Source: Rhodothermia bacterium
GTDB taxonomy: Bacteria; Bacteroidota; Rhodothermia; Balneolales; Balneolaceae
DNA: 64,000 bases
Direction: 5' to 3'
Assembly (NCBI GenBank): GCA_030427885.1
Contig: JAUICM010000007.1
Span: 186,001-250,000 of the forward strand
Positions 11,583 to 33,400 of the stretch are shown piece by piece. The position numbers were made by a program, and so were the translations under genes. Every line of letters starts with the position of its first letter. Within the stretch, counting starts at the first letter, position 1. Under the pieces are notes generated by a model. It had not been told where the DNA came from and ran no database searches. It saw only the letters and a program-made list of their open reading frames with translations.

Positions 11583-11592
11583 GCAAATAGCC

Positions 11593-14485: not shown

Positions 14486-14488
14486 TCA

Positions 14489-15552: not shown

Positions 15553-15806
15553 AACCAATTGAATTTCCTGAACAGAATGTGATTTTCGCTAAAGATCAGC
15601 CCGAATATCAACCTTTACCGGCTCATAAAGACGAACTAGGCATTGTTACCACATGTTGGGAATTAAGCCCTGAAGAACGTCAAATACTCATTAGTAACGG
15701 TAAGATATACCTGCAACTAATGACATTCAATCAACCGCTTCAACCGGTAAGCTTACATGTACTTAACCCGATTGAACAACCAGAAGAAACATCAACCAAT
15801 AACTAA
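15549..15806 (+). CDS. Small early phage protein
   Basis: The 85-residue frame opens with a TTG that overlaps the upstream TGA stop codon. The pattern is strand-like with a Pro-rich N-terminus (MKPIEFPEQNVIFAKDQPEYQPLP) and the stretch VTTCWELSPEERQILISNGKIYLQLMTFNQPLQPVSLHV. The segment 'w.ls.eEr..i...g.iyL...tfn.plqPv' is typical of small uncharacterised phage proteins. I cannot name a function. Confidence 0.55.
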   Translation: MKPIEFPEQNVIFAKDQPEYQPLPAHKDELGIVTTCWELSPEERQILISNGKIYLQLMTFNQPLQPVSLHVLNPIEQPEETSTNN

Positions 15807-15819
15807 TAAATAAACGATC

Positions 15820-16461
15820 ATGGCACGCAAAATATGGATTGACCCACACGGAAGAGAAATTCCGAACAATCGGGTAACCGATGAAGAAAAACAGATCGAG
15901 AAGATCATTAACCGGATACACCCGAAAGCACAGAAAGCAGTTCAGGCATTAACAGAACTAAAAGAACTGTTTTTAGGTGATTTCATGGAGTACCTGAACG
16001 GGCTTTCTCAGTATGGTTTAAACGAAGATTGGAAGGGAAACGCAACCTCTCCTAACTTTTCGCAAACCATTCGATTAGTAAGAGAGGAAAAAGAACGGAT
16101 CACCTTTGATCACAATATTAACCTGTGTCAACGCCTGGTATATGAATGCCTCAATAAATGGGGGAAAAACTCCAATGTTAACCTTAAAAAAGTGGTTGAC
16201 AGAGCATTCAAGCCGACCGGATCAGGGAGCCTTTCACGGCAACGCTTATTTGATCTAAGGGCAACAGATGTACAAAATGACCCTGATTGGGATCAGGCAA
16301 TGAGTTACATGGAAAAAGCAATTAAGGTTGTTGATTCAAAGGCTTATTTCGCTATTGAAGTGAAAGACGCTGAAGGTAACTGGCAACGAATGCCGCTCAA
16401 CTTCTATGATATAAAACTGGAAGTTGAAGAGGAATCAGAAAGCGATTCAAAGGCTGCTTAG
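15820..16461 (+). CDS. DUF3164 family phage protein
   Basis: The 213-residue protein begins MARKIWIDPHGREIP, the DUF3164 opening 'w.D..G..vp'. It continues with FLGDFMEYLNGLSQYGLNEDWKGNATSPNFSQTIRLVREEKERITFDHNI and later DPDWDQAMSYMEKAIKVVDSKAYFAIE, all matching the family order. DUF3164 genes are markers of Mu-like phage early regions, where they lie between the transposase and gemA. The biochemical activity is unknown; a DNA-binding or sulphate-transport annotation sometimes seen in databases is not supported here. Confidence 0.85.
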   Translation: MARKIWIDPHGREIPNNRVTDEEKQIEKIINRIHPKAQKAVQALTELKELFLGDFMEYLNGLSQYGLNEDWKGNATSPNFSQTIRLVREEKERITFDHNINLCQRLVYECLNKWGKNSNVNLKKVVDRAFKPTGSGSLSRQRLFDLRATDVQNDPDWDQAMSYMEKAIKVVDSKAYFAIEVKDAEGNWQRMPLNFYDIKLEVEEESESDSKAA

Positions 16462-16484
16462 CCTATAATTTTAATTATAGATCA

Positions 16485-16766
16485 ATGAATCAATACTACA
16501 TCGTACAGTTCGCGATCATGGGCGGAAGCTTTAAAATCTACAATAGACAAAAAGACTTTGAAGAAATAAAAGCAACCGTTCGTGATCTGGAAATGAAACA
16601 ATTCTTCATTTCCACAAAAGAACCTATTGAAGATGTAGAAAAAGCGTTACTGGATAGATTGCGAGAACTGAATAGGTTTAGAAAATCAATCCATATACGA
16701 ACTGAAAAAATTGAATTAAATGAGAATAACGAACGGGTTATTCTTCTTGAATCAAATGACTTTTAA
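16485..16766 (+). CDS. Small early phage protein
   Basis: A 93-residue product with a strand-rich start (YYIVQFAIMGGSFKIY) and a helical middle (PIEDVEKALLDRLRELNRFRKSIHI). It lies between DUF3164 and the GemA-like gene. No family is recognised. Confidence 0.55.
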   Translation: MNQYYIVQFAIMGGSFKIYNRQKDFEEIKATVRDLEMKQFFISTKEPIEDVEKALLDRLRELNRFRKSIHIRTEKIELNENNERVILLESNDF

Positions 16767-16777
16767 AAGGACTTGCA

Positions 16778-17233
16778 ATGGTTTCTAATGCTCTAAAAAA
16801 CGAAGGACAGGCACAATCAATAAACGATAAAAGACCTGTACCCATGAACTTAAGAGTCCTTCACGGAATCGGTAAAAAAGCCGGTTTCGATCACGAAAGA
16901 TTAAGCGACCAGGCACAACTTGCCTTTGGTGTCGATAGTATGTCAAAACTTTCAATATCTCAGATGTGGGAGTTAGCAGACCAGATAAACCCTGGTTTTA
17001 CAACGTGGTTTAAATCATCCGGTAAACGCGGGAAAGCCACACAAAAACAGCTTGATTACTTGCAGGATCTTTGGATTCTACATTCCAGAGAAAAGACAAA
17101 ATCAAGCCTGTTAACATGGATAAACAACAAAAGGAAACAACACAATCTATCATTTCCAGTTGACGGGCCGGTATGGTTCAGCGCTCAGGATATGTACAAG
17201 GTCGTTAGCTTCCTACTTAATGAAAGGTGGTAA
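16778..17233 (+). CDS. GemA-like regulator (DUF1018, Mu gp16-like)
   Basis: The 151-residue product has the two parts of DUF1018. The N-terminal half reads LRVLHGIGKKAGFDHERLSDQAQLAFGVDSMSKLSISQMWEL, and the C-terminal half reads GKATQKQLDYLQDLWILHSREKTKSSLLTWINNKR, then WFSAQDMYKVVSFL. In Mu, GemA (gp16) affects host gene expression and DNA supercoiling through gyrase-related genes. Conservation of order after DUF3164 supports the call. Confidence 0.75.
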   Translation: MVSNALKNEGQAQSINDKRPVPMNLRVLHGIGKKAGFDHERLSDQAQLAFGVDSMSKLSISQMWELADQINPGFTTWFKSSGKRGKATQKQLDYLQDLWILHSREKTKSSLLTWINNKRKQHNLSFPVDGPVWFSAQDMYKVVSFLLNERW

Positions 17234-17235
17234 AT

Positions 17236-17439
17236 ATGGATTACAAAGAATTAGAACAGGCACTTGAAAACGGTGATACCGTTGAATTATGTGCAATTAA
17301 TCAACACGGTGAGGCGGTAAGATGGAGTAAAGTCTTAACTATAAATAAAGCATTCCCGCTAAGTAGGTTCAGGATTATTAAAAAGTCAGGACAGATAATA
17401 GATCCTCACTTGCATAATAAACTAACCTATGAAAACTAA
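17236..17439 (+). CDS. Small early phage protein
   Basis: The ATG at 17236 is chosen, two bases after the GemA stop; a GTG at 17227 would add three residues. The 67-residue product (MDYKELEQALENGDTVELCAINQHGEAVRW, then FPLSRFRIIKKSG) has a helix followed by a small beta hairpin. The family is not recognised. The next small gene starts inside its 3' end. Confidence 0.5.
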   Translation: MDYKELEQALENGDTVELCAINQHGEAVRWSKVLTINKAFPLSRFRIIKKSGQIIDPHLHNKLTYEN

Positions 17440-17587
17440 GGTCTGTTGGAAATGCAAAGGCACTGGAAAACACGCCTGGGAAGGTGTGTTGCCAGACGGC
17501 CAATTAGTGCAATGTTGGGAATGTAAGGGCCTTAAATACCTAGTAGTAAAACCGAAGAAAATACCCGCATGGGTTTTTAAAAAGTGA
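17429..17587 (+). CDS. Small zinc-ribbon protein
   Basis: This 52-residue frame overlaps the previous gene by 11 bases and ends just before the methyltransferase gene. It contains two paired Cys motifs, CWKCKGTGK and CWECKG, spaced as in the DnaJ-type CxxCxGxG zinc ribbon. The C-terminus is basic and hydrophobic (KYLVVKPKKIPAWVFKK). It may bind zinc and nucleic acid. Its position fills a gap that otherwise would be empty, which supports it as real. Confidence 0.65.
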   Translation: MKTKVCWKCKGTGKHAWEGVLPDGQLVQCWECKGLKYLVVKPKKIPAWVFKK

Positions 17588-17591
17588 ATTT

Positions 17592-18461
17592 ATGATAACT
17601 GCAAACACATATTTTTCAGGGGCCGGTTTATTTGATATAGGGCTTATTCAAGGTGGTTTAAATATCCAACAATCCTTTGAAATAGACCCTATATGCATTA
17701 ATACCCAGAAGATGAATTTTGATCATGATATTGTACAATGTGATATCAGAAATAAACTGGTTAAGGATGAAAAAGAATGTGATGTAATGGTTGCAACGTT
17801 CCCTTGTAACAAATACAGCACAATAGCTGATATTCACAACACACGATCAGGTGATGATTTATTCCTTCATTACTTCAGGCATGTAGCAATTCAAAAACCT
17901 GAAATATTCATAAATGAGAATGTTCCGGGAATGAAAAAATTTCCTGTCGTAATGGAAGCATTAACTAAACTTCCTGATTACTACGTTACTGTATTTTGCC
18001 CTGTTAAAGCTGATAACTGGTTACCACAACAAAGAGACAGGTTAATAATTATAGGTTCTAAAAAACCATTCAATTGGCGACCACCAGAACAACAAAAAAG
18101 GGTTTTACTTTCTGAGATACTAGAACCAAACCCCAAAATAAAAATACCTAAGTACGTCTATAATCGACTTAACGGGAAATACCGAGACCTTCCAATTATA
18201 TCAGATCCTGAATCAAATGATTTAGCGCCAACATGTGTAGCGCATTACGCTAAAGACATTGGAACTAGACTGGTTAAAGATGATCGTTTCAGAAATGGAG
18301 TTAGACCATATACACCCCTTGAATATGCACGATTACAAGGCGTTCCAGATTGGTTTAAGTTCTCAGGAACTGACAGGCAAGCTTATAAACAAATCGGTAA
18401 CGGTGTACCTGTTCCAATCGGTATTTGGGTTGCTAATGAACTAAAAAGATACTTTAAATAA
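17592..18461 (+). CDS. C5 cytosine DNA methyltransferase, phage-borne
   Basis: The 289-residue protein methylates cytosine C5 in DNA using S-adenosylmethionine. Motif I is TYFSGAGLFDIG (residues 6-17), motif IV is TFPCNKYS with catalytic Cys72, motif VI is ENV at 109-111, motif VIII is QQRDR at 146-150, motif IX is RPYTPLEYARLQGVP, and motif X is GNGVPVP near the end. The usual PCQ of motif IV is PCN here. No restriction nuclease gene lies beside it, so it is an orphan enzyme that likely protects phage DNA from host restriction or alters expression. Target sequence cannot be predicted. Confidence 0.9.
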   Translation: MITANTYFSGAGLFDIGLIQGGLNIQQSFEIDPICINTQKMNFDHDIVQCDIRNKLVKDEKECDVMVATFPCNKYSTIADIHNTRSGDDLFLHYFRHVAIQKPEIFINENVPGMKKFPVVMEALTKLPDYYVTVFCPVKADNWLPQQRDRLIIIGSKKPFNWRPPEQQKRVLLSEILEPNPKIKIPKYVYNRLNGKYRDLPIISDPESNDLAPTCVAHYAKDIGTRLVKDDRFRNGVRPYTPLEYARLQGVPDWFKFSGTDRQAYKQIGNGVPVPIGIWVANELKRYFK

Positions 18462-18462
18462 A

Positions 18463-18789
18463 ATGCTTTGCCCTGAATGTAAACATGACACTGTGAAGAA
18501 TCATCGCACGTATGACAGCGAGTTCTTACCGTTCCGAAAATCGGTTATGATTTGCGAAATGGAAGGGTGTAGTTTTAGAGCATTCTATTACTTAAGCATT
18601 GATGAAGATCAACAGTACACCTATAAAGATCATATCATTTATAAACGGGCGTATGAGCGGTTATGCCAGGTACTGAATCAGGTAGTTAAAGAACTGGAAC
18701 CAGGGGAAAACTATTTACAAAAGTGCGAACAATTGAGTTTTGAACTGGCTACAGTAGAATTAAAAGAAAAGATCGAAGAGCTTGAATAA
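18463..18789 (+). CDS. Zinc-finger phage protein
   Basis: The 108-residue product has an N-terminal treble-like zinc site: CPECKHDTV, then a second pair CEMEGCSF about 25 residues later. This resembles the Ogr/Delta-type or C2C2 zinc activators of late genes in P2-like phages, in which CP.C and C...C pairs occur in a short protein. The rest is helical and acidic (RLCQVLNQVVKELEPGENYLQKCEQLSFELATVELKEKIEELE). An activator role for the late operons is possible but not proven. It begins one base after the methyltransferase gene. Confidence 0.55.
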   Translation: MLCPECKHDTVKNHRTYDSEFLPFRKSVMICEMEGCSFRAFYYLSIDEDQQYTYKDHIIYKRAYERLCQVLNQVVKELEPGENYLQKCEQLSFELATVELKEKIEELE

Positions 18790-19664
18790 TGGAATATGAA
18801 GATTGGCTAAAATCCGTTCGCTTAGATGCTAAATTCAGGGAGAGTTTAGAGAATTCTAAAAAGCTTGTGTACCAGGTAAAACGGTTCACAAGCTTTGTCA
18901 TTTCAGACCTAACAACACAAGTACGCAAAGGCCGTAACATAGATGATATTATAAAAGATCTTCAATCCGGTTTCGGTATTCCAAAAAGTAGGATCAAGGA
19001 ATTCAGCGCTTTCATAAAAGACGAACTAAACCGGTATTCAGAATTTAGATCTACTTCAGGCCGTGATTTAGGATTAACGCTTTCAGATAGCGAATTTCAG
19101 CGTATAAATGCGATACTGAATTATGAAACAACTATCCAACAGCAAGCGGCGTTAGATGCTGTTAAAACCCTTCAGAAAGCCCAACAAACACCAAGTATTC
19201 AAAGAGTGTTAGCAAACGGCAGCGGCGTCAATCAAATAGAAAACCTGTTACGATCCGGCGGGATGCAATACCACGCTATAACAGAGGCACGTTTAGCACT
19301 TCAGCAATTCAATAGCCGTTACACCTATTCAGTTGCAGATCAGGCACAAATAAACATATTCGAATATTACGGGCCTTCAGACGAAAAGAACCGCGCCCTA
19401 TGTGCCGCCCTGGTTGGTCTATGGTTTACAAAAGATCAGCTATCTAACATGGATAACGGTTTAGGATATTCTGTACTTCATTATTGCGGCGGCCCGAATT
19501 GCCGTCATGAGCCTTTACCAGTTCCCCAACAGTTTCAAAACCAGTTCCCTGAAAAGCTTTCCGGTAACCTGGAATTAGTTCAATTTGCCCAGGATTCAAA
19601 ACGGCCTTTCTCAATATTCGTCACAGAAGAGAATAAACAGAAGCTTGAATTAGAATTAAACTAA
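18789..19664 (+). CDS. Minor head protein (Mu gpF-like)
   Basis: The 291-residue product has a long helical N-terminal half with Gln/Ala-rich helices (IQQQAALDAVKTLQKAQQTPSIQ). The C-terminal domain reads INIFEYYGPSDEKNRALCAALVGLWFTKDQLSNMDNGLG, followed by YCGGPNCRHEPLP. This is the 'Mu F-like' head morphogenesis pattern: a conserved 'yyGp.Ds.tR..C..l.gk.wt..e', then 'GGy.CRH...P'. Such proteins help build the portal vertex. The odd point is its place, at the end of the early operon next to the phage edge and about 11 kb from the portal gene. Confidence 0.72.
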   Translation: MEYEDWLKSVRLDAKFRESLENSKKLVYQVKRFTSFVISDLTTQVRKGRNIDDIIKDLQSGFGIPKSRIKEFSAFIKDELNRYSEFRSTSGRDLGLTLSDSEFQRINAILNYETTIQQQAALDAVKTLQKAQQTPSIQRVLANGSGVNQIENLLRSGGMQYHAITEARLALQQFNSRYTYSVADQAQINIFEYYGPSDEKNRALCAALVGLWFTKDQLSNMDNGLGYSVLHYCGGPNCRHEPLPVPQQFQNQFPEKLSGNLELVQFAQDSKRPFSIFVTEENKQKLELELN

Positions 19665-19665
19665 C

Positions 19666-19903
19666 CGTTTCATTTTTTATCAAAACCGTGTTTCATTTAA
19701 TTTCGAATTTTTATTGTATTTCAACGCCTTTCACGGTTGCATTAATTACGAATATGCCCTTTTAAGCAACTATACAATGCAAAATCATTTCACAGTGTGC
19801 GCCTCTCCCTGAAATGCCTTAATATCCCGTTTCAATTAATAACAGAATGAATTGCGCGTTTGCGTGCGTTTGGGCCTCACCCGTTGCATTTATTCTCGTA
19901 TAT
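19666..19903 (+). repeat. Cluster of five MuA-like sites at the right edge of the prophage
   Basis: Five 22-base sites in one orientation follow the last phage gene: 19666-19687 (CGTTTCATTTTTTATC...), 19689-19710 (TGTTTCATTTAATTTCG...), 19735-19756 (GGTTGCATTAATTACG...), 19828-19849 (CGTTTCAATTAATAAC...) and 19882-19903 (CGTTGCATTTATTCTCG...). The first three are spaced by 23 and 46 bases. They resemble the sites at 8951-8993, and a cluster at the phage edge fits a transposition end. At a Mu right end the sites should read inward from the right, that is, on the minus strand; here they read on the plus strand. Confidence 0.55.
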
Positions 19904-20173: not shown

Positions 20174-20704
20174 CTAATCGTAGTTCAATACGATAGTAAT
20201 ATCACCTATGTAATCTCCATTGGGTACATCGCCAACAATGATAGATCCATAGACATATAAATAGATCTCTCTCCAAACATCGCTAGCTGATCGTTGTTGA
20301 AGAGTATTCTCAGCTGGTGGTACCAATAACTTGCCCTGAGCAGGAATTGGAACAGCATACCGCGAATCATTAATTCCGTTATCGTTATATGCCATTTCAA
20401 GATTCATAGGGATTTGCGCTGAATTTCCAGGTGTAATGCTTATAAGGTTATCTGGAAACACTAACTCAACGAATACATTCTGGGCATCCAGCATCCTAAC
20501 ATTGAAAACACCCATATTAAGATCTCCCAGACTAATATTTTTTTGACCTGAGTTTGAAATGATAGCACCAAAATCAAGATTTTGTTCTACCTGGGCACTT
20601 AATTCCGGTTCAACGCGGATCTGAAGGTTGATGAACTGTGCTTTAATTGATGCAGAAGTGAATGATAGAACCGCAACCAATAATGATATTACTCTACTAT
20701 TCAT
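20174..20704 (-). CDS. Secreted DUF4402-like protein (distal of three)
   Basis: The 176-residue product has a Sec signal peptide (LLVAVLSFTSASIKAQ, cleavage near residue 22). The mature all-beta domain has the DUF4402 pattern: early 'LDFGAIISNSGQKNISL', a middle with Asn/Pro loops, and a terminal 'GDYIGDITIVLNY' strand. DUF4402 domains are small secreted immunoglobulin-like modules related in layout to spore-coat-U pilus subunits. The C-terminal strand ending in -NYD may serve assembly. It overlaps the upstream paralogue by eight bases and is the last gene of the cluster, next to the prophage. Confidence 0.65.
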   Translation of the reverse strand: MNSRVISLLVAVLSFTSASIKAQFINLQIRVEPELSAQVEQNLDFGAIISNSGQKNISLGDLNMGVFNVRMLDAQNVFVELVFPDNLISITPGNSAQIPMNLEMAYNDNGINDSRYAVPIPAQGKLLVPPAENTLQQRSASDVWREIYLYVYGSIIVGDVPNGDYIGDITIVLNYD

Positions 20705-21296
20705 AATTGATAGTTATCGTAATAGTACCTGAATAAGTTCCTGCAGTTAGTACACCCAACGACTGCAGGTTTAATGACCCATAAATCAATAGGTAAGCAG
20801 TTTCCTGGTATTGTTCAATATTTGGGTCGTAACCATCATAAACTGGAGTAGGAGGAGGTCCCGGAGGACCGCTTGAGCGTTGCTTAACTGAAAATCTTGC
20901 TTCGTATACATTAGGGGAGGTATTGGTCATAAGAACTGCAGCAGCCGGATTTGAGCCAACGAGTTCCCCTTTATTCACATAAGCAGCCTGCATGGTAAAC
21001 TCAAGTAAGCAACTGGCGTCATTGCAAGTACCGCCGCCCAGTGTAAGATCGGTAGCAGTTAATTCTACACTGATATCCATATATTCAACAGCTGTTATTT
21101 CTACAACTTCAGCATTATCTATTGTTACTGCTACTACTCCAAAGCCTGGAGCGACCTCTCCAAAGTCTATACTTCCTGTATTAGCGGCTGCATACACAGA
21201 ACTGAAACTCCCAAAATCAATCTCCTGACCATCGACAAATTGGAAGGGTGTTAAAGAACAAAAAAAGAGAAAAAATATTTTAAAAATAGTTTTCAT
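20697..21296 (-). CDS. Secreted DUF4402-like protein (middle of three)
   Basis: The 199-residue product has a signal peptide (FKIFFLFFCSLTPFQFVDGQ) and a beta-rich mature part. The opening motif SIDFGEVAPGFGVVAVTIDNAEVVEI and the end GTYSGTITITINYE are shared with both neighbours, marking them as paralogues. It differs by two Cys residues (GGGTCNDASCLLEF) that could form a disulphide and by a Pro/Gly loop (SSGPPGPPPTPVYDGYDPN). It follows the third paralogue by four bases. A role in a surface fibre or matrix is inferred. Confidence 0.65.
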   Translation of the reverse strand: MKTIFKIFFLFFCSLTPFQFVDGQEIDFGSFSSVYAAANTGSIDFGEVAPGFGVVAVTIDNAEVVEITAVEYMDISVELTATDLTLGGGTCNDASCLLEFTMQAAYVNKGELVGSNPAAAVLMTNTSPNVYEARFSVKQRSSGPPGPPPTPVYDGYDPNIEQYQETAYLLIYGSLNLQSLGVLTAGTYSGTITITINYE

Positions 21297-21300: not shown

Positions 21301-21804
21301 CTAGATGTAATCTATCTCAATGGTAAAATCACCCTCATAATTTCCGGGCCTGGCATTAGATAGGTTAACACGACCTCCGATCCAAAGATAGAAACGGCCT
21401 TCAGAGTTGAATCTTATACTTCTGTTTGCATTCTCAAAGAGTTCAGAACTAGACTGGTCTTCAATATCATTACCAGAGATCTCATATGTGAAAGTAAGAG
21501 AGCCGCTCCCACTTGTATTGGTCAAAGTTCTTTGTTGAATATACTCAAGCCTGAATTCAGTTCCCGGAGTTCCCGTTGCAACCATATATCCGGCATTAAT
21601 ATCGGAAATTGGATTTACATAAATTTCCTTTTGACCCGGTTGAGTATTTCCAAATGTCATTGAATTTACAGTGATGAGTTGAATCGATGGTAATACTTTT
21701 GATGACATTTGAATACTTGCACTGATAGCGTTTTCAGCTCCGATCTGACTATATGAAGTACCATAAATCAAAAAAGTGAATAAAAGGGTAAGGGTAAATC
21801 GCAT
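21301..21804 (-). CDS. Secreted DUF4402-like protein (proximal of three)
   Basis: This 167-residue protein has a clear signal peptide (LTLLFTFLIYGTSYSQ). The mature domain begins with ISASIQMSSKVLPSIQLITVNSMTFGNTQPGQKEIYVNP, the 'mtFG...pG...' wording of the DUF4402 group. It ends NYEGDFTIEIDYI, matching its two downstream paralogues. A 97-base gap separates it from the CBM-like gene upstream, so an internal promoter is possible there. Confidence 0.65.
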   Translation of the reverse strand: MRFTLTLLFTFLIYGTSYSQIGAENAISASIQMSSKVLPSIQLITVNSMTFGNTQPGQKEIYVNPISDINAGYMVATGTPGTEFRLEYIQQRTLTNTSGSGSLTFTYEISGNDIEDQSSSELFENANRSIRFNSEGRFYLWIGGRVNLSNARPGNYEGDFTIEIDYI

Positions 21805-21901: not shown

Positions 21902-22318
21902 TTACCAGGCAAAGGCATTGAAATAGAGGGGATCTAAAGGAACCTCACCAGCCCGAAGTAGTAAAGTTCTTTTCATTACTTCAGTTAGTACTCTTGGCTG
22001 TCTCTCTTCATTGATAACCATTTCAAAATTATACTCAAGAGTCTTTCCCCGAAATCTGGATGAGAAATCGATGGTGATTGAATAAACACTGTCTACAGGT
22101 TCAGTATCTGTAAGGATATAGGGTCTGTTTGTGTCAATGGGGTACATGTTTCCAACAATCTTAAGTTCATCTCTGCCAGGCACAAAGGAACTATCTTCTA
22201 ATTGAGGAAGCATGTTTACATTAAAAGTAACTTTCGATTGAGCAAGTAGATTATTCAGAGGAGTAAATACCACTATAGTCAGAATTAGTAGTGTTTTAGT
22301 TTTAAATAGTGGCTTCAT
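21902..22318 (-). CDS. Secreted CBM/starch-binding-like beta-sandwich protein
   Basis: The 138-residue product has a signal peptide (LLILTIVVFTPLNNLLAQ) and one small domain: SKVTFNVNMLPQLEDSSFVPGRDELKIVGNMYPID, then YSITIDFSSRFRGKTLEYNFEMVIN. The sequence 'vtFnVnM......F.Pg.d.v.v.Gn' is seen in CBM20/CBM48-like domains attached to many secreted Bacteroidota proteins. A carbohydrate-binding role is possible, but there are no clear aromatic binding-site residues. It starts two bases after the DUF4900-like gene, so it is part of the same transcript. Confidence 0.55.
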   Translation of the reverse strand: MKPLFKTKTLLILTIVVFTPLNNLLAQSKVTFNVNMLPQLEDSSFVPGRDELKIVGNMYPIDTNRPYILTDTEPVDSVYSITIDFSSRFRGKTLEYNFEMVINEERQPRVLTEVMKRTLLLRAGEVPLDPLYFNAFAW

Positions 22319-22320: not shown

Positions 22321-23823
22321 TCAGCTATCTCCCTCTGTTTTATTTACAACTTTGTCCTTCCAGTATACAATTGAGAAAATACTTTCCCGAGGAAAGGAGG
22401 GGGGTATTGTTGACCTCAACCGGTTGTCATATTGATAGTTTTTTGAGTAACCGGACACAATGGATGATCCGGAAAAAGTTCCTACCGGTCCACGATTTTT
22501 CTGAACGATACCACCAAGAAGGTTTATAGTTCCTTTGGAACCCCCGCTATTATAGTTTTCTACATAGAATGAAGTGTTAAGAGCCATGATACTGGCATGA
22601 ATAGTGAGATCCTGGGACCCGGAAACAGAATGAGCATAACGGTCAACAACCACATCTCCTTCACTAACCAGACCCAAAATATCAGTAGAAGAACTGTCAT
22701 CTAAAGGGCTGGTAAAATATTCAATATCACCCGTTATTTCGATCTCCTCTTCAGAATGTAAAGTAGCGGATCCTAATACAGTTCCTTTTACTGAAGCTTT
22801 TCCGGTAGTAGAAATAATTCCGTTAAAATCATTCATTTCATGATCCTCCCAATCACTGTACGAGGTAGTAGTGCAACCCCAGCCACAGGATGATGTTGTG
22901 ACTTCGCGAATTTGAACGTATCCAACATCATCATTTTCAAAAAATTCCACTTCTATATCTGCTTCAAAGGTAAGTCCTCCTGCATTCGCAGCATTCGAAA
23001 GTTTGGTCATTTCGTAATTTGAGGGAGATGTTTTTTCAGGTGCATTAAAATTCTCACCACCATAGAAATTAGGGCTTGTCGGATTGGTTTCATGTGCATC
23101 CCACATATTGGGACTTGTAATAAGACCATAGAATGAAGGTGACCCGGACATTTTAAAGGTTCCATTGGTATGAATAGGACCATAGATGTTATCGGCTCCC
23201 ATAAACCAGATCTCACTACCCAATGAGCTTAATTCGGAGTCAGTCATATAGGAGTATTTTGAAAATGAATCTCTCTGCATTAAAACTTCCGTTGTAACTT
23301 CAATACCATCAAATTCACTCACACTAACCAACAGTACTTTGTACTGATCCCAGGAAGCAACACTATTATCAGCGGGTATGTTATTACTATTCATGGTATA
23401 ACTGGTTAAGGTACCAGACATATTAAGCGAATTCGATTCTTCATTCTCATCATCATTTCCATTTCCATTTCCATTTCCGTTTCCGTTCCCGTTCCCGTTT
23501 CCATTACCGTTCCCAACCTGATTCTGAATTAGCACAGGAGCTTTTCCTGTCATATATCCAATGATGTTTCCGACTGACCTTCCCTCAATAATATCAGTAT
23601 TCATAACATCGTCGAGAGAAATAGTACCTACCCAGTCGTTATCAGCTTTCATTGTTTCAACGGCATTGTCGATCAAACTTTTCGATATGTTGCGTGCCTG
23701 TTGCTCAAGAAAATATTCTTTAGATCGTTCGGGAATGAGATTTGCCCGTTCATTATTTCTGAGATGAATAATACCGGTCAGGATAGTGAGTCCGGCAACT
23801 AAGAATAATAGACTTTTACCCAT
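22321..23823 (-). CDS. PilX-like/DUF4900-type membrane-anchored protein, cassette 2
   Basis: This is the third gene of the second cassette, 500 residues. A short N-terminus (MGKSLLFLVAGLTILTGIIH) forms a single membrane helix without a prepilin peptidase site. A helical stalk follows (QQARNISKSLIDNAVETMKADNDW), then a Gly-Asn repeat of about ten units (near residues 103-122). The large beta domain contains SEIWFMGADNIYGPIHTNGTFKMSGSPSFYGLITSP, which fits the DUF4900 'gpvhtNg.l...g.p.f.G' pattern. Its N-terminus is clearly homologous to that of the 25047 gene. Pilin-type assembly is inferred from helix plus stalk layout and gene order. Confidence 0.6.
   Translation of the reverse strand: MGKSLLFLVAGLTILTGIIHLRNNERANLIPERSKEYFLEQQARNISKSLIDNAVETMKADNDWVGTISLDDVMNTDIIEGRSVGNIIGYMTGKAPVLIQNQVGNGNGNGNGNGNGNGNGNGNDDENEESNSLNMSGTLTSYTMNSNNIPADNSVASWDQYKVLLVSVSEFDGIEVTTEVLMQRDSFSKYSYMTDSELSSLGSEIWFMGADNIYGPIHTNGTFKMSGSPSFYGLITSPNMWDAHETNPTSPNFYGGENFNAPEKTSPSNYEMTKLSNAANAGGLTFEADIEVEFFENDDVGYVQIREVTTSSCGWGCTTTSYSDWEDHEMNDFNGIISTTGKASVKGTVLGSATLHSEEEIEITGDIEYFTSPLDDSSSTDILGLVSEGDVVVDRYAHSVSGSQDLTIHASIMALNTSFYVENYNSGGSKGTINLLGGIVQKNRGPVGTFSGSSIVSGYSKNYQYDNRLRSTIPPSFPRESIFSIVYWKDKVVNKTEGDS
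23454..23513 (-). repeat. Degenerate hexanucleotide repeat coding (Gly-Asn)n
   Basis: About ten tandem six-base units (CATTTC, CGTTTC and CGTTCC variants on the plus strand) encode an alternating Gly-Asn tract in the DUF4900-like protein. Six-base units keep the frame, so copy-number change would alter linker length, not switch the gene off. Confidence 0.85.
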
Positions 23824-23835
23824 ATCTCTCTCCTT

Positions 23836-24420
23836 TTAATATGGAAGGTTGATGTTATTTGGTACAAAAATTCGTTTCCACACATTTCGCGGATAATTTT
23901 CTGTGGATGAGTTAACATGAAATGGTTCACCGGATTCCACGATCAGCTCTACTTCAATTTTCTTTACAATGGAGGTATTGTTAGTCACCGAGCCTGTTGC
24001 AGAGAAGTAGCTAAGTTTAAAATCGACAACCGGAAATTTGAGCGTTCCATAGGTATTTGAAGTAATTGGTCCGGTTCTTTTTAAATAGTAGTCGTTAGGA
24101 TTAGAAGTGGAGGTTACGGGATCCGTTTTATCGAAGTACCATCGAATGGTGGTAACGCCATAATTATCTGTATCGAAAGCATCTGCAAGAAAGGCGATGT
24201 TGTCGGAATCGATCTGAGAAAAAGGGTTAGCAGTACCGGAATTGAATCCGATTCTGTTAAAATCATTTGTCAAAACTTCTACAATGTCATTGATAGAGCC
24301 CTGGCTTACTGAATTTAGCGTAAGCTCCTGATTATTCATCAGCACTTGTTGGTTAAACACCAGGATGGAAATAAGTAAGATTCCTCCGATCACAAAAGAC
24401 GTAATAATACCGGCATTCAT
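23836..24420 (-). CDS. PilW-like membrane-anchored protein, cassette 2
   Basis: The 194-residue product begins MNAGIITSFVIGGILLISILVFNQQ, one membrane helix, then a helical stalk (GSINDIVEVLTNDFNRIGFNS) and a beta-rich head with VTTIRWYFDKTDPV and VKKIEVELIVESGEPF. The pattern (hydrophobic helix, amphipathic stalk with 'i..D..riGy..', small sheet) is that of PilW/PulJ minor pilins, but the Gly-Phe cleavage motif with Glu at +5 is missing. It is homologous to the 26166 gene in the other cassette (shared SFVIGG/SYIIAG helix and 'FxxxD..RIGFN/KIGYN'). Gaps to both neighbours are 12-13 bases. Confidence 0.6.
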   Translation of the reverse strand: MNAGIITSFVIGGILLISILVFNQQVLMNNQELTLNSVSQGSINDIVEVLTNDFNRIGFNSGTANPFSQIDSDNIAFLADAFDTDNYGVTTIRWYFDKTDPVTSTSNPNDYYLKRTGPITSNTYGTLKFPVVDFKLSYFSATGSVTNNTSIVKKIEVELIVESGEPFHVNSSTENYPRNVWKRIFVPNNINLPY

Positions 24421-24433
24421 TTATTCATCTCCA

Positions 24434-24853
24434 TTAGTAGGAATAAGATTTTACGTAGTCGAGTGTCACAAAAACGTCAGGTTCCGTTCGTTCGATCAGT
24501 ACAGAGATGCTTACCTGATATCTTTTTTGGGAGCCATCATCGCCAATTAGTGCAGAACTTCCGAAAACTAACAAAGTGTCGTTGTACTGATCAGAAGAAC
24601 CGTAGGTATGGACTTCTGTCTTTGGATAATCCTCATAAACATAAGTGAAGCTATCAGGATCAAGGTCATCATCATCATAGATCCATTGAACTTTGTCGAT
24701 CTCATCCTGAGCCACTGCTATGGCTCTATATTCGGCTTCGCCACGGTAGAATGCCTGTCTTATCTGATTAAAATTCCTTGCAGTATTCATGGAAAGCATT
24801 GAAAACAACACCATCGCAGCTCCAAGGAAAAAAATATCGGAGTAACTTTGCAT
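24434..24853 (-). CDS. PilV-like membrane-anchored protein, cassette 2
   Basis: This first gene of cassette 2 gives a 139-residue product with an N-terminal membrane helix (IFFLGAAMVLFSMLSMN) and then a stalk with NFNQIRQAFYRGEAEYRAIAVAQDEIDKVQW, the 'A...Aqd.ie...' wording of PilV-type minor pilins. A small acidic beta region (DDDDLDPDSF, YQVSISVLIERTEPDVFVTLDYVKSY) follows. It is homologous to the 26793 gene of cassette 1. A 193-base gap precedes it, so cassette 2 may have its own promoter. Confidence 0.58.
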   Translation of the reverse strand: MQSYSDIFFLGAAMVLFSMLSMNTARNFNQIRQAFYRGEAEYRAIAVAQDEIDKVQWIYDDDDLDPDSFTYVYEDYPKTEVHTYGSSDQYNDTLLVFGSSALIGDDGSQKRYQVSISVLIERTEPDVFVTLDYVKSYSY

Positions 24854-25046
24854 AACCCATCATTCTTGTTAAGTCAGAATCCTTTTTTCGGATCCTGAAT
24901 ACTTCTTCAGGAGAGTTATTGGCAATTCTGCCTTTTCAATCAGAGAACTGCTTTATAATCACCTGATTTTTATAGAAGAGGAGGGGGAGAGACAATAATT
25001 ACAAAAAATATACTGATAAACCTCGATTTAGGTACTAAGCCCGATT
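24854..25046. other. Intergenic gap between the two pilin-like cassettes
   Basis: This is the longest gap inside the 24-kb cluster (193 bases), between the end of cassette 1 and the first gene of cassette 2. It is AT-rich and contains a purine run (GAGGAGGGGGAGAGA). It may hold a terminator or internal promoter, but I see no convincing -7 box. Confidence 0.35.
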
Positions 25047-26153
25047 TTATTCAAAAGTACTAACTCTTGTGTAGCGATTTTGCTTAAGGTGATTAGCGGA
25101 TGCAAGTTTGGCATATTCAATAGCGGTACAGTCGTACTGAACAGAGAGATTACCACTGATATCTACATCGATCACCGTGTTATCTCCGGGGGTGTTTCCA
25201 ATAAGTACAGAACCGTTCAGATCAGGAGTACCCTTACCATCCAGATCGAAAGCATTCTCGAAAACAATAAGCCCGTTGAATGTAAAATTACCAGCCAGGG
25301 ATAGAGCTCCTTCAAGTTCGAGTTCACCACCGGACCGAATCACCATAATGCCGTAGCCTTCAGTAATACCGCCTGTAAGCTTAGCATAGGAATCAACGAA
25401 AAAGATTCCCGGATCAGCAGCTGAACCAAAATCGCCTTTATAATTTCCACTTACATTAACTACTCCGGGCTGATTGCTGAGTCTGGCAATAAGTTCATCT
25501 ACGGGTTCATAAGTCATAGTTGGATCGTAATCTACCTTATCAACACTGCTTTGAAGCGCAGATGAGTTACTGGTGCCTGCAAGAACCTTTACTTCATCTA
25601 ATAAAGTAGTTACTGTAACTGCTGGCAGGTCAGGACAGGTTCCGCTGGCGTCATTTCCATTAATGGTAGCACTACCTCCAAGACTGAAAGTGAAGTTATC
25701 TGTACCAAATCCCAGAGCTCCCTTGGCTTCCGGAATAAAATCAAGGCGGGTTTTAAGATAGGTACTGATAACCGTATGTGTTGAGGAACTAGATTTGTAT
25801 TCTGAAGATCCTCTGGTCCCAGTCCCACCATACCAAGCGGTACTGTAAATCCGGATAGAATCAGGGTCTGTAGCTGTTGCTCCAACCGACAGTTGATCAT
25901 AATATAATTCAATATACGCTCCATCAACATCGGTTACCCAGGGAGCATTTTCTGAAGGGGCCCAGGATTCATCCTGGTTGATCTCCTCCATAGCAAGCTG
26001 AATAGCACTGTGGGCAGTATTTTTGGCCTGAACCTCTTTTGCATAGTCAGAAGAGATCACCATTATTCGTTCCCTCTGATTATTCATTCCTAATTGAATA
26101 ATACCGAGTACTACGATTGACCCAACCACTAAAATTATCATACCTCTTCCCAT
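25047..26153 (-). CDS. PilX-like membrane-anchored protein, cassette 1
   Basis: The 368-residue product opens MGRGMIILVVGSIVVLGIIQ, a single membrane helix matching the N-terminus of the 22321 product. A stalk follows (YAKEVQAKNTAHSAIQLAMEEINQDESW); the 'A...A..A...a..ei' helix is typical of PilX/PilX-N minor pilins. The distal part is a beta-helix-like domain, with GNYKGDFGSAADPGIFFVDSYAKLTGGITEGYGIMVIRSGGELELEGALSLAGNFTFNGLIVFENAFDL. A later segment (TGDC/ CPDLP, YDCTAIE) has Cys pairs. It probably stands at the tip or surface of an extracellular structure. Confidence 0.6.
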   Translation of the reverse strand: MGRGMIILVVGSIVVLGIIQLGMNNQRERIMVISSDYAKEVQAKNTAHSAIQLAMEEINQDESWAPSENAPWVTDVDGAYIELYYDQLSVGATATDPDSIRIYSTAWYGGTGTRGSSEYKSSSSTHTVISTYLKTRLDFIPEAKGALGFGTDNFTFSLGGSATINGNDASGTCPDLPAVTVTTLLDEVKVLAGTSNSSALQSSVDKVDYDPTMTYEPVDELIARLSNQPGVVNVSGNYKGDFGSAADPGIFFVDSYAKLTGGITEGYGIMVIRSGGELELEGALSLAGNFTFNGLIVFENAFDLDGKGTPDLNGSVLIGNTPGDNTVIDVDISGNLSVQYDCTAIEYAKLASANHLKQNRYTRVSTFE

Positions 26154-26165
26154 ACTGCTACCTCA

Positions 26166-26780
26166 TTAATTATCTCTAAGGTTTACTGGTGAAAATCTTT
26201 TTGTCCATGAAGTTTGAATATACCGTGGATCCGAGCTACTGCTATATTGTAAAGGGAACGGGCTTTCAGTAACCATTACTATTTCAATCTGATTAATAGT
26301 ATCAATAGTGGATTTACTGGAAACGGCTGATATAGGAGTTGGCATAGCAGATGATCCGCCCAGCTGATTATAATACCTGATTTCGAAGCTTACCACTCCT
26401 GCATTCATATTTGTGATCACACCACCTACGGTTCTACGGAGCGTAAAATCATTAGGGTTCTCAGTTGCTGTTACAGAATCACTGGTGAACTCCCATTTTA
26501 CTAATTCAACTGATTCATCAGCACTGTTATCAATATTAGCGTAAAACTCAATATAGTTATCAGCCGCTACACGGATCAGAGTATCAGGAACCTGGTTCAG
26601 GTTATAGCCGATCTTAGGGATGTCATATGAAATACTCTTTACAACCTCAGATGCTCTTTTCTTCTGATTTTCAGAAAGAGTGAGCTCATTACCGCTGTAA
26701 TTTGTGTTATAACCAATGGTAATGATGATGATCATCAACATACCGGCTATTATATAGCTAACTATCATTCCAAAATTCAT
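26166..26780 (-). CDS. PilW-like membrane-anchored protein, cassette 1
   Basis: The 204-residue product starts MNFGMIVSYIIAGMLMIIIITIG, a membrane helix preceded only by four residues, followed by a stalk (LSENQKKRASEVVKSISYDIPKIGYNLNQ) and a beta head (VELVKWEFTSDSVTATENPNDFTLRRTVGG). The head wording 'R(R/W)tvggvi', 'FeIRYYNQLGG' and 'INQIEIVMVTESPF' parallels the 23836 product, which shows the cassettes arose by duplication. No prepilin peptidase signature is present. Confidence 0.6.
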   Translation of the reverse strand: MNFGMIVSYIIAGMLMIIIITIGYNTNYSGNELTLSENQKKRASEVVKSISYDIPKIGYNLNQVPDTLIRVAADNYIEFYANIDNSADESVELVKWEFTSDSVTATENPNDFTLRRTVGGVITNMNAGVVSFEIRYYNQLGGSSAMPTPISAVSSKSTIDTINQIEIVMVTESPFPLQYSSSSDPRYIQTSWTKRFSPVNLRDN

Positions 26781-26792
26781 AATATACCTGAT

Positions 26793-27299
26793 TTAGTCAG
26801 CGTAAAAGCTTCTGAGAAACTTGAAGGTGTAGCTGTTTACGTTGTTGTTCCTGGAAAGCGCGTCAGAAGAGATGGTGATCTCCATCAATTTAAGAGTGGA
26901 TTTATTGTTTGTCTTGGCTTCAGCGTCGCCATCGTAATACGACACTGTTATTGAAACATCGAATTCCACTCCACCAGAAGCTGTAACAGTTTCTGTCCAG
27001 CCATGGTAGTCGTCAAAATCATTAAAATTTGCCCTGGTAGTTTCTCCACCACCGGGGCCTAAGCTTGAAAAACCTCCGGGAATGCTTACCGGAACATTAC
27101 CACCTACAGTATTGGCGTCATAGGTGACCGCACGTGATTCATCAATATAATCCTGAGCAATGGCAATAACCTGTTCCTCTAACTCACCTTCAATCATTAC
27201 AACATTGTTAGTGAGAATTGCCCTGTTTGCATTCATTACCAGGAATGATACGAGAGCCATAGCAAGCATTGTTTGGAGAACCTCTATATAACCAGACAT
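26793..27299 (-). CDS. PilV-like membrane-anchored protein, cassette 1
   Basis: The 168-residue product (MSGYIEVLQTMLAMALVSFLVMNANRAIL) has one membrane helix, then a stalk with EGELEEQVIAIAQDYIDESRAVTYD resembling PilV minor pilins and the 24434 product ('AIAQDyID' against 'AVAQDEID'). The distal part is Gly-rich and beta-rich (VEFDVSITVSYYDGDAEAKTNNKSTLKLMEITISSD). It is the first gene of cassette 1, 121 bases downstream of the 2515-residue giant protein gene. Confidence 0.58.
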   Translation of the reverse strand: MSGYIEVLQTMLAMALVSFLVMNANRAILTNNVVMIEGELEEQVIAIAQDYIDESRAVTYDANTVGGNVPVSIPGGFSSLGPGGGETTRANFNDFDDYHGWTETVTASGGVEFDVSITVSYYDGDAEAKTNNKSTLKLMEITISSDALSRNNNVNSYTFKFLRSFYAD

Positions 27300-27420: not shown

Positions 27421-30400
27421 TTACTTTATCAGGGTCATTTTTTTAAGAAAGGTACCTTTAGATGTAGTAAGTCTGTATACATACACCCCTGAAGCAAGCC
27501 TGCCCGTATTAAATTGAATTTCGTGATTTCCAGCTGAACGAAAGCCTGATACAAGAGTTTGTACTTTACGACCGAGCATATCATAAACGATAAGAGATAC
27601 ATCAGAATCTTCATCCAGACCAAAGGGAATGCTTGTTGTTGGATTAAAAGGGTTGGGATAGTTTTGATGGAGATAAACCTCTTTAGGAATGTTAGCTTCG
27701 ATCTCTTCTGTACTGATCAATAAGGTTAGTCGGTTCTTGACATGCTTATATCTGGATTTTTGTCTGTACTGTGGAGAATAAGGATTATAATTGGTTTCGG
27801 CTTTACCAATTGTATTATGATAAAGTGTATAATCCTGTTCTTGTCTGAGATCTATTTCCTTGCCGTTTGAATTATCAATTAGGGTGATAATCCAATCATC
27901 AGGTATCCCTTTCATGCCCGAAATACTAATTGTGTACTCACCTTCCGTACCATTTCCTTCAATAAAAGCGTCTAAGACCAAAGGTATTTTAATACGATAA
28001 TTGAAGGACTTGGGTTGATTATTAATAGCTAGTTGTTCTCCATTCTCTAATGTTGAAAAGAAATCAATTCTGGAATCACTGAATGGAACGAGCCTGTACG
28101 CGTCCATTTCGTCTACTCCACGGGTTCCAGTATCGCTGAACATAATACTTGTTCTTTTACTCAATCCATTGGTTTGAGCCACCAGTTCTAGAACAGGTGT
28201 AGATGCATGATTTTCCTTTCTGAGGAAATTTCCACCTGTAGTTTTTGCGGTTTTTTTGACCTTTAAAACTGGTGAAGGCCCGTTAGCTTTAACCCAAAAT
28301 CCCTGGAAAGGAGGGATGATTCCACTTCCTAAGGTCCCCGTAGTACCATTCCACGTAAGGTATTCTCCATTCCCTGAATTTGCAGCTGGATCCCATATAT
28401 AAATGGTTGAAGAAATATTAGTTTTAGTCCAATTTGAAGGGCTGTTCCAGTTTATTGCTGCTCCAAAAGGATTTCCCACGAAGTTCCAGCCAGAGTCTGC
28501 GGAGGTATTGTAAGTTACCCCAAAGTTCACTTCAGTTCCATTTCCATCCCATTCTTGTCCGCTGACATCCAGTGTATCAGGCAGTGGGTCATTATATCTG
28601 GAATCGGTTGCAATGTCACCAAAAACGTATACCCACATTCCTTGCCCTTGAACTATACTCTGAGATGTATTTGCAGGAACTCTGAACCGTTGATTATCTG
28701 TGCCGGGATAACTTTCGATATAAGTAAAAACATTTGGTTGGAGTACGGAATCCATCGGCAGGGAAGCCGGATCATAGGTGGCACCCGTAAAACCCTGAGT
28801 CAGAGTTCCATCAAACAAGTCTCCAAAAGTTGTAGACACAGGAGAGGAGATCATCCTCCAGCCTTTAACTGTTGTTATTATTCTCTGAAATCTGATCACA
28901 CCGGAACCATATAACTGAGCTTGTGAGATCAGATTTTTCCCGCTTGGAATGAATAATTCACCATCTGTTAAGGTTAGTGTACCTGTAACTGTTAGATTAT
29001 CTGTCGGAAAAAGAGAGGTTGGATTATTCAGCTCCAAATTCACGAAAGTATGTGGGCTTGTAATCGATTGCTCACTTGAACCATTGAAAATAACAGTTCC
29101 TAAAGTAATATCCGGCACATCAATATCCCCACCAACTGTTAAAGAATCATTATTGCTTCCCAGAATATCACCATTACCGGTAACATCTCCAGTGACCACA
29201 AAATTTACGGACCCTGAAACGGTTAATTCGGCACCACTCTCAATGGATAAGGCAGAAATAGTTGTGTTTGTTACATCAACTACTGGGAATTCGTTTCCTT
29301 CAGTTGGGTTTGCGGGGATCAATACCACTGATGAAGCTCCCGGGACAGAACCCACATTCCAGTTTTGCGTATCGAACCAATCGGAGGCAACAGCAGGGGA
29401 TCCGAGCTGACTTTCCCATATATGGCTGAAAGCAGCAAACTCAACATTTGCATTATCGGTAATGGCAACAGCATTGAGCGTACCTGTGATCGTAGATGTG
29501 GTGATGCTGGTAGAAGATGTGAGAATAGAAGTATAGGTGCCATTAGCATTATCTGTTACAGAACCAAGGCTTCCTTCTGTTTCTGAGAGAAGAATGGCAC
29601 TTCCACCTGAAGACAGGTTGTTGCCGTAAGCATCTTTCAACTGAACAGTAATTGTTGAAGTACTGGCCCCATCATTTAGTATTACGGTTGGGGATGCTGT
29701 TATAATCGAGGTTGCGGCGCTTGCAGCTCCTGGCGTCACATTAAATGAATTACTTATTCCTGTTTCAGAACCTGCTGAATTTGTTGCTGTAATTGTACAG
29801 TTGCCTATAACAGTTATACTTACAGTATGTGAATTGAGAATTCCCGAAGCAAAATTAGTTGTCGTACCCTGGCCGCTACCCATTGAACATGAAGATGTAA
29901 TGACAACTGTACCATTGAAGGTTGTAACGGTAGTTTGAGTACCATCAATGGCTGTAATCTTAATATCAAAAGATTGTCCGGCACTTTTAGTGCTTATATT
30001 TCCAGATGGGACCCGCTCTATTTTAAAACCTGTCAGAGTACCTGCATTTACAATATTGAATGAGTTACTTATCTCAGTTTTATAAGCTTCACTGGAAGTA
30101 ACCAACTCATGCACGCCTATGTTATCAAAGGTAAGATCATCGAATACGGCAATGCCCAGTACATTTGTAGCAATGGTTGTAGTACCTGATAAGCTTCCAG
30201 GTCCTGATTGTTTCGCAATATCAATGTTAACAGCAGGAGTTTCTACGCTATTCCCAAACTGATCAACTAATTGAACTCTGACAGAAGGAGTGATGCTACT
30301 GTTTACATTGGTTATTGATGGTTGTTGTACAAAAGTAAGGCTGTCAATTACTCCGGGAACCATAGTAAGAGTCCCATAATTGGTGGCCCCCCCTTGTCCT

Positions 30401-33400
30401 GTTGTACCGGTGTTTAAAATGTTTCCGGTATTTGGTAGAACTCCAGTATTTGGCCTAACCTGTAGTCCACTGAAAGTTATTTGTCCCGGATTAGAGGTCG
30501 ATTCCGAAGAGATGGAAAATTTAGCAGTAGATGAATCTCCCGAAAACGAAGTAAAAGATGCATTGAGATTAGTTGAACCACCATAGGCAGCGTCAATTGT
30601 AGCAACAGGAGAGGAGCCCGTATTCCAACGATACCCTGATGGAGCAGTAAGTACAATTGTACCGGAATTGGTTAATTCACCCGGAAATCCTTCCTGTATA
30701 ATAGGCCCGGTAAGGGTAGTAAAAGCCCCGTTTGCATTATCGGCTGAAATAGCTGAGCCACCAGTAGCGGCTGTAATCTTACGGATCGCAGAACTGTATT
30801 TTACTGATAGATAATCTTCCACACTCTCTCTTTCAACCTCAGACAAATTACGACCATACAAAATAACCTCGGCAATTAATCCATCCCAACTTCTATTATT
30901 ATTCTCAAAAGGATGATCCTTGCCACCTTTTCCCACAATGGCAGTTGTTGCTGAACTAATGGTACCAGTCGGGGGGGCCGCTGCTGATGATGGGTTATTC
31001 AGGATACCATCCACATAAAGATCATACACACTACCGCTCTCCCAATGCAAGCTGGTTATTTGAGCTCCCGTAGTCTGAATATCGGAAAAACTCTCAAGTT
31101 GGTTATCTGGATCGTTAGCAAGTATTCCTGTCTTTACAACATTTGAAAATGCACCTCCGGTATTAGCACCATCGGCATCATACCTGATAGTAAAAGTTTT
31201 ATCGTCATTGTCTGGTATAACCGCATGCCAGAGTCCACGGTCAGTGTTAGTTAGATCAGATTTATACACAAGAAACAGGGTAAATTCGGATAAACCATTT
31301 ATATAATTTTCGCCGTTTGCATCTTCAAAATGGTCCCCATTACCTGCGAAATTAATTGCTGGTTTGCCTCCAAAGGCAGTGTTACTGAGAGAATAAGTAG
31401 GCTCAGTACCGGTATTTGCCACACCTGAAAAATCATTATTATTTCCACTCTGGTCGTACCAGGTGGTAACTTCCCCAGCTCCTGTTGTATCGAATCCTGC
31501 ATCAGCACGTAGCCAAACTAACAAATTTGAAATGGATTCGACTGCACTTACTTCGATTACCCTTTTGACGGTATCACTTTCTGCTTCATCATCATCATAA
31601 GCCAAGAAGCTTATGGTTCTTTCAGGTCCGGTAGGAATCGTGGCATAGTTATAATATTCAACTGAGCGTAAGGCAGTTTCATAATCCCCAAAAGAGGCCG
31701 TGTTAAAAAGCTTGAGTTTACCGGTGGTCTCATCATAGATACCCTCGATACCGTACAATGTAGAATAGAGCAGGCTGTCTTCTACTGCTTTGAAATTCCC
31801 GGTAATAAGTACCAATGCACTATCTATCATCGTGTCGTCGGGGTCATACACTGAAATAGTATTACTGATATTAATGGCTTCCTGGGGATATGTTAGATCG
31901 GTTCCCTCTAAATTTGAAAGAACAGGTGAAGAGTTTATTGCACTAACATTTAGTGATCTGCTTTCGGTGTTACTGTCATTATCACCATCGTTGACTTTAA
32001 AACTTATTGTTCTGGTAACTTCAACAGGATCAGAACTGGTATTTTCATAAGTCACATTTTCAAGTGCAGTCTGGTATTCAGCAACGGTCGCTGATCCGGA
32101 AAGAGTGAGTGTCCCGGATAGTACAGAAAAAGAGCCGGTAATATTGCCAGTGTCAGTAAAGTCGAGATAGTCTTCTCCTGAATAATAGTTAGAAACGATC
32201 TGTATTGTTGCAGCTTCCATATTGGTATCATCAACGTCGCTTATGGCTGCAGTAAACGACATGGAAACAGCTCCATCACCTTCAGAATAACTTTCAGGAC
32301 CTCCCGAAACTCCGGACAAGGTAGGACTGGAGTTTAAAGCGATAATATTAACAGTTCTGGAATCAATATTACTACTATCATCCCAATCGAACACCTTAAA
32401 ATCGATCTGGCGAAGTGCGGTACTGGGGTTTACAGTATTTGTGTTTTCATACGTAACAGAGCGTAGTGCTGTTTGGTACTGAGCCAGATTTGCATTACCT
32501 GTTAATGTCATGGTTCCCGAACCGGAGTCCCAGCTCCCGGTAATTACCCCATCAGAAAAAGCTAATTCGTCTTCGGAAGGTGTATAATTACCAGAAATGA
32601 TCACTTTGGCAGAATCCAGAACAGTATTATCAGCATCGGATATAACAAGGCTGTTGGTGATACTGACAGGAGAGTCGCCTTCAGTGAAATCCAGATTACT
32701 CCCTTCAACGGATGAAACTACAGGAGCTTCATTACACCACTTATCACAAAGAAAATTATATACACTGGTAATTTGTCCATTGCTAAGAGCTGAATTCCAG
32801 GATATAAGTTCTCCAATGTAACCTGAAAAACTATTTAATCCTGTAGGATTGTTTCCGGTTGTTGCCGGATCACGTGTGCCGTCTTCTTCTCCAATTTTGG
32901 CACTACCACTATGTGAACGTTGATAATCAACATTGGTTTGCTGAATAATAGAACCTCCGTTCATTGAAGCAGACCAGGTATTCCCGGTAGTGGATTCCTG
33001 GCTGGCTATTATTATATAGCTTTCATTAGGTATCACCGTTCCAAGATTTATGGACTTATACTGATTTCCACCAGACCACTCATTACTATTCCATACAAAG
33101 GCATACGCCGATCCATCTTTAACACTAATTTGATACCCACGCGTAGCGCCTCCTTGTTCATAAATGATTTGTAAACCAGCCACTGAGTTTCCGGTTCTGA
33201 ATAAGGCCGCAAACGATTTTTCATAAAAATCTGAAGTATTTAAGATGGTATTATTTGGAGGTGTCATTGCGTCATTCATACCATCAAATAATAGCCCGCC
33301 ACGCTCACCCATATAATATGAATCAAAAACAGGTTGATCACCCGCTGGAGTAGCGGAAGCAGAAAGGTCTGTTCCACTTCCTAAAGCATTATCAGATCGG

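Follow-up and report, generated by a model that had tools for sequence, protein, structure and literature searches.

Class III leaders and the prepilin peptidase that removes them are regarded as defining and near-universal in type IV filaments and serve as the usual handles for finding these systems in genomes (PMC4471445, PMC6668835). The known leaders are 6-26 residues long (PMC4471445), and the peptidase was placed among the ancestral key components by Denise et al. 2019 (PMC6668835). The closest described counterparts of the genes reported here are GspI-GspJ-GspK (XcpV-XcpW-XcpX) of the type II secretion system (T2SS), with Thermus TTHA1218/TTHA1219, and the type IVa pilus operon fimU-pilV-pilW-pilX-pilY1-pilE. 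Here we describe two tandem gene cassettes, V1-W1-X1 followed by V2-W2-X2, on the minus strand of a 64,000-nucleotide stretch of a Balneolaceae genome (genome G000, G000:C13:186001-250000; hereafter the window). We consider it quite probable that the V, W and X products are GspI-J-K-like minor pilins of a type IV filament that has no leader and does not need the prepilin peptidase. The six open reading frames (ORFs; lengths in amino acids, aa) are as follows.

26793-27299, minus strand: V1, predicted leaderless GspI/PilV-like minor pilin, 168 aa, N-terminus MSGYIEVL with an acidic codon 6
26166-26780, minus strand: W1, predicted leaderless GspJ/PilW-like minor pilin, 204 aa, N-terminus MNFGMIVSYI
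25047-26153, minus strand: X1, leaderless protein in the GspK/PilX position, 368 aa, N-terminus MGRGMIIL
24434-24853, minus strand: V2, paralogue of V1, 139 aa, N-terminus MQSYSDIF with an acidic codon 6
23836-24420, minus strand: W2, paralogue of W1, 194 aa, N-terminus MNAGIITSF
22321-23823, minus strand: X2, paralogue of X1, 500 aa, N-terminus MGKSLLFL, Pfam DUF4900 at 7.4e-8

Successive genes are separated by 12, 12, 193, 13 and 12 nt, the gap of 193 nt lying between the two cassettes. With the T2SS and Thermus systems the cassettes have in common the V-W-X order, a long N-terminal helix, ectodomain folds as predicted for V1 and W1, and, in the GspI-like member, an acid close to +5. Unlike GspI-J-K, however, V-W-X carry neither a class III leader nor a conserved cleavage Gly, W lacks Glu+5, X2 is larger and includes a DUF4900/bactofilin-like part, and the host genomes mostly lack Peptidase_A24. 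V, W and X follow one another in the same order and with the same relative sizes as in the type IVa operon, and likewise go with machinery of the PilB/PilC/PilT/secretin type; the cassettes differ from that operon in the tandem arrangement of two cassettes among giant type IX secretion system (T9SS) proteins and DUF4402 genes, in the missing leader, and in that neither PilY1 nor PilE was identified.

A leader is impossible in all six genes, because the nearest in-frame stop codon lies at most 5 codons 5' of the ATG. Among 138 family rows, 137 have no alternative in-frame start at least 5 codons upstream, and a single row has one. A hidden leader overlooked through a misplaced start is thus excluded, which bears out the preliminary description of this locus, where the lack of a prepilin leader was pointed out and an alternative start restoring one was named as the observation that would overturn it. 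Since the class III signal peptide of type IV filament subunits was tested for in V-W-X and found to be absent, we count these proteins as a variant of the type IV filament and not as strict members. Each protein contains one hydrophobic segment, beginning at residue 1-7, in agreement with the single N-terminal membrane helix proposed earlier; in the models of V1 and W1 described below, the helix starts at residue 3.

An acidic residue (D or E) occupies position 6 in 39/39 V homologues and is the sole charge within residues 4-25. Judged from its place in the sequence, the acidic codon 6 of V would be the analogue of Glu+5 in the mature pilin helix; it comes into register on loss of the initiator Met, which is predicted for V1 (Ser2) and for 25 of the 39 V proteins. 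The earlier claim that both the Gly-Phe and Glu+5 elements of the prepilin site are missing therefore stands for W and X, which have no such acid, but its Glu+5 part is not supported for V.

The structure comparison was run on V1 and W1, using AlphaFold2 models built from family alignments. The W1 model (predicted local distance difference test, pLDDT, 89.6) has a helix at residues 3-56 followed by a beta sheet, and the V1 model (pLDDT 92.2) a helix at 3-57 followed by a beta sheet; both thus show a long N-terminal helix with an antiparallel beta-sheet ectodomain. VIA-align placed W1 solely with GspJ-type proteins (XcpW, EpsJ) and the Thermus pilin TTHA1219 at Z 11.1-12.8 (the next unrelated row at 2.9), and Foldseek gave XcpW as its top match (E 1.4e-3). 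For V1, the top seven VIA-align rows were all of the GspI type (XcpV, GspI, EpsI, TTHA1218; Z 7.3-8.2) with near-whole coverage of the target, the next unrelated row being at Z 5.2; since Foldseek alone found no significant match, the V1 assignment leans on VIA-align and its Z calls for caution. Within the same solved complexes, each of the two models finds its own counterpart. By predicted fold, then, V is a GspI/XcpV-like and W a GspJ/XcpW-like minor pilin, as the preliminary description had suggested for V-W-X, and by analogy in gene order and N-terminal helix X1 would correspond to GspK/PilX. The search with hidden Markov models of pilin families that had been recommended gave no match for V, W or X1 in Pfam and NCBIfam, nor did the X proteins match T2SSK or PilX_N in Pfam. 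Nothing relevant was found in the PDB by sequence search with the V and W profiles, and the sole PDB match of the V profile, the CaMKII hub (E 0.004), was not accepted as real.

The nearest folds are those of the T2SS pseudopilins GspI and GspJ. PilV, PilW and PilX of type IV pili share folds with the T2SS pseudopilins, and the fold therefore fails to separate a T2SS from a type IV pilus. An alternative which agrees with our reading on the leaderless subunits and differs in function is a T2SS-like pseudopilus by which DUF4402 or other periplasmic proteins would be driven through a secretin, with no pilus on the surface. Besides the nearest folds, it has in its favour that Denise et al. 2019 (PMC6668835) noted an unusual 'T2SS' in Bacteroidetes whose major pilin is very divergent; the machine locus, however, encodes a second, PilT-like ATPase typical of retractile pili, and we regard this alternative as unlikely.

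The machine in question is encoded, in the genome that contains the window, at G000:C2:473473-483978, without V-W-X genes of its own, and includes T2SSF (1.6e-27), two T2SSE proteins (2.7e-98 and 3.6e-34) and a secretin (3.6e-26), adjoined by proteins referred to here as MGQQQ proteins. These 'MGQQQLLLVILV' proteins are leaderless and pilin-like and are encoded in the V-W-X machine operons, whose first genes encode proteins of 120-160 aa that begin MGQQQLLLVILVTIIVGIATVVA and likewise have no leader. In operons of sister families, V-W-X lie among genes for T2SSF/PilC, a T2SSE/PilB ATPase, the second T2SSE/PilT-like ATPase, a PilO-like protein and the secretin, and V-W-X within the machine operon were also found in Fodinibius sediminis, F. 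salsisoli, F. roseus, KSB1 and Kryptonia contigs. Among the 59 relatives, 39 encode the MGQQQ protein, and precisely these 39 also encode T2SSF. W is present in 35 of the 59, 33 of which have the machine, the remaining two being incomplete assemblies (Fisher p 3e-8). V-W-X thus co-occur with the PilB/GspE, PilC/GspF and secretin components and, in sister families, sit inside their operon, which speaks against the idea in the preliminary description that these assemblies have left the type IV pathway. The contig scan gave no match with W1 alone and did give matches with the MGQQQ alignment; the named relatives of the machine genes were Balneolaceae and other Balneolales.

The same distribution bears on the proposal that V, W and X are minor pseudopilins which do not assemble, staying stably anchored in the inner membrane and serving the surface proteins, T9SS giants or DUF4402 type, that are encoded in the operon with them. 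The missing leader would fit such a role, as would the position of the cassettes in the window's family, in a surface-protein operon away from the machine. We consider it improbable, however, given the near-confinement of W to genomes with the machine, the presence of the same genes inside the machine operon in other families, and the fact that the major subunit of the machine itself likewise has no leader.

Several further genes were noted. Single MGQQQ-type genes lie apart from the machine locus at G000:C8:81759, G000:C4:413693 and G000:C4:391067. A small cyclic-nucleotide-binding protein is encoded inside the leaderless pilus operon at L056:8937-9443 (Pfam cNMP_binding, 7.6e-10), with a protein of similar size in the same position at L111:11582-12085; it is a possible regulator of the pilus motor. 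Genomes of family f4 have a third V-W-X-like trio of very divergent sequence (MNANQLLLALGALLLL / MHALTQIIVPQIIVGLL / MGNYALILVMALSF), at L117:11898-14143 within the machine operon and at L060:16360-18827.

Peptidase_A24 (PF01478) was detected in 3/59 relatives and N_methyl prepilins in 5/59. In a class-level survey of 165 genomes with a completeness floor of 90%, the leaderless pilin was found in 116 genomes and Peptidase_A24 in 16, with both in 13; 103 of the 116 leaderless-pilin genomes are therefore without a detectable prepilin peptidase, a component by which a type IV filament machine is ordinarily recognized. The controls of the peptidase search were positive in 12/14 genomes. Peptidase_A24 is absent from ten named Balneolales, among them Gracilimonas mengyeensis, Aliifodinibius salipaludis and four Fodinibius, as well as from 7/7 tested Ignavibacteria/Kryptonia; two further Balneolaceae, four of the KSB1 genomes and one of Neomarinimicrobiota do have it. 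In the genome of the window it adjoins canonical prepilins with normal leaders on contig C4, and V-W-X might be thought to serve that canonical pilus or T2SS, where peptidase and N_methyl prepilins stand together. The distribution of Peptidase_A24 does not follow that of W among the relatives (3/59 vs 35/59), and this explanation, already disfavoured, is very improbable.

The peptidase counts weigh also on another possibility, raised in general form by the preliminary description as a different processing route, namely that an unrecognised peptidase cuts V, W, X and the MGQQQ proteins after the Gly of an ultra-short leader (MG|, MSG| or MNxG|). All 41 X proteins start with M-G-[R/K], Gly2 is likewise invariant in 21/21 MGQQQ proteins, and Gly4 is common in W. 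No cleavage Gly, however, is conserved in the V or W families: the matching Gly is lacking in 23/39 V and in several W (MNDYSD, MNINIL, MNPSLL, MKLAFI). Furthermore, the acid of V would fall at +3 instead of +5, the 103 genomes without Peptidase_A24 count against it, and so does the length of 6-26 aa known for leaders (PMC4471445). A different route is thus possible in principle, but in this form we give it a slim chance; judged from the N-termini, it is simplest to suppose that V-W-X undergo no processing, except possibly loss of the initiator Met.

Several points weigh against a filament assembled from leaderless subunits with no need for the peptidase. The genome of the window does contain one Peptidase_A24, and a divergent peptidase could escape PF01478. 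V and W match no Pfam pilin family by sequence, and the match of the MGQQQ protein to solved pilins is weak (geopilin, E 0.007). In addition, removal of the initiator Met is not predicted for V2 (Gln2) or for any of the W proteins, and V of Kryptonia/Ignavibacteria is without the codon-6 acid.

Taking these together with the evidence above, we propose that translation of V, W and X would start at, or no more than 3-4 residues from, the start of a mature pilin. The N-terminal helix would insert each protein in the membrane with its globular part in the periplasm, and assembly would fall to the PilB/PilC/PilM-like platform and the secretin, whose genes lie on contig C2, so that insertion, engagement of the platform and polymerisation proceed with no leader to be removed. 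V and W, with X by analogy, may form the priming tip complex under a major 'MGQQQLLLVILV' filament. Somewhat less firmly, we think it likely that prepilin processing has been lost altogether in an entire type IV filament lineage of Balneolales, Ignavibacteria, Kryptonia and related groups, its major and minor subunits alike being mature-like and put together by a PilB/PilC/secretin machine that is standard except for having no prepilin peptidase. In the window's family, the tip cassette would exist in two old versions, both placed in an operon with T9SS giants and DUF4402 proteins, and the two cassettes probably allow alternative tips to be made alongside a surface-protein programme.

The pairwise likeness of the two cassettes, noticed in the preliminary description, is due to homology: phmmer on a set of 778 ORFs gave E values of 1.8e-4 for V1-V2, 8.7e-20 for W1-W2 and 5.6e-7 for X1-X2, and hhalign gave a probability of 99.3 between the X1-type and X2-type profiles. 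The genome has two W genes only, both within the window. In the maximum-likelihood tree of W, a moderately supported split (89/90 and 85/85) separates type 1 from type 2, and the type 2 clade takes in other families, indicating that the duplication of the cassette is old. DUF4900 was found in 17/17 X2-type members, 9 of the 17 having in addition a bactofilin-like stretch (Bactofilin). The ratio of nonsynonymous to synonymous substitution (dN/dS) is 0.044 for X1; for the other five genes dS is saturated, with dN of 0.05-0.24. Chance or non-coding ORFs are ruled out by this low dN/dS and the conservation of W in 35/59 relatives.

The genes surrounding the cassettes in the window are listed below.

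40590-44330, minus strand: giant type IX-secreted surface protein, upstream of V1 in the same direction
35074-40434, minus strand: giant type IX-secreted surface protein, likewise
27421-34968, minus strand: giant type IX-secreted surface protein, likewise
21902-22318, minus strand: secreted protein of 138 aa, trailing the type-2 cassettes in relatives, no Pfam match
21301-21804, minus strand: DUF4402-type secreted protein, first of three whose order is kept in relatives
20697-21296, minus strand: DUF4402-type secreted protein, second of the three
20174-20704, minus strand: DUF4402-type secreted protein, third of the three

The three giants carry Por_Secre_tail (1.7e-8 to 8.1e-8) as well as Invasin_D3 and Laminin_G_3. 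In Pfam the DUF4402 match is at E 1.1e-5 for 21301-21804 and sub-threshold for 20697-21296 (0.03) and 20174-20704 (0.09). The position of the putative tip cassettes among giant T9SS-sorted and DUF4402 proteins suggests a role in surface adhesion.

A Mu-like transposable phage occupies window positions 1-19700 and extends leftward to about C13:177700 (L067:9778-17712); it encodes a transposase (12494-14485), terminase, portal and major head protein. The phage is inserted in the cassette operon between the third (20174) and the fourth DUF4402 gene, and detaches the last three genes of the operon, encoding a DUF4402-position protein, a 275-aa Ig-like protein and a 1204-aa SPOR protein, which are contiguous with the rest in relatives. 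These distal genes (L067:4529-9686, C13:172529-177686) have a possible chaperone-usher look, with DUF4402 subunits, an Ig-like chaperone candidate and a SPOR protein of about 1200 aa. As a chaperone-usher pilus the downstream genes were not accepted: DUF4402 alone was supported, and no PapD or usher match was obtained in Pfam and PDB sequence searches. The 275-aa and 1204-aa proteins matched WxLIP and SPOR, respectively, and for these reasons the chaperone-usher reading is kept as a lead only.

In the literature searched (bioRxiv and subscription papers lay outside the search), no leaderless type IV pilin has been described. 'Incomplete' sets of type IV pilus genes have been reported for Ignavibacteria, namely Melioribacter roseus (PMC3534657); in the Ignavibacteria and Kryptonia contigs of our own sample, we identify the missing pilin as the leaderless MGQQQ protein. 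If our reading is correct, it would account for 'incomplete' pilus gene sets in this part of the tree, where searches based on prepilins would systematically overlook the pilins. Cultured strains, for instance of Fodinibius and Gracilimonas, make direct testing feasible. On the same reading, removal of the leader would be mechanistically dispensable for the insertion of a pilin, its extraction from the membrane and its polymerisation.

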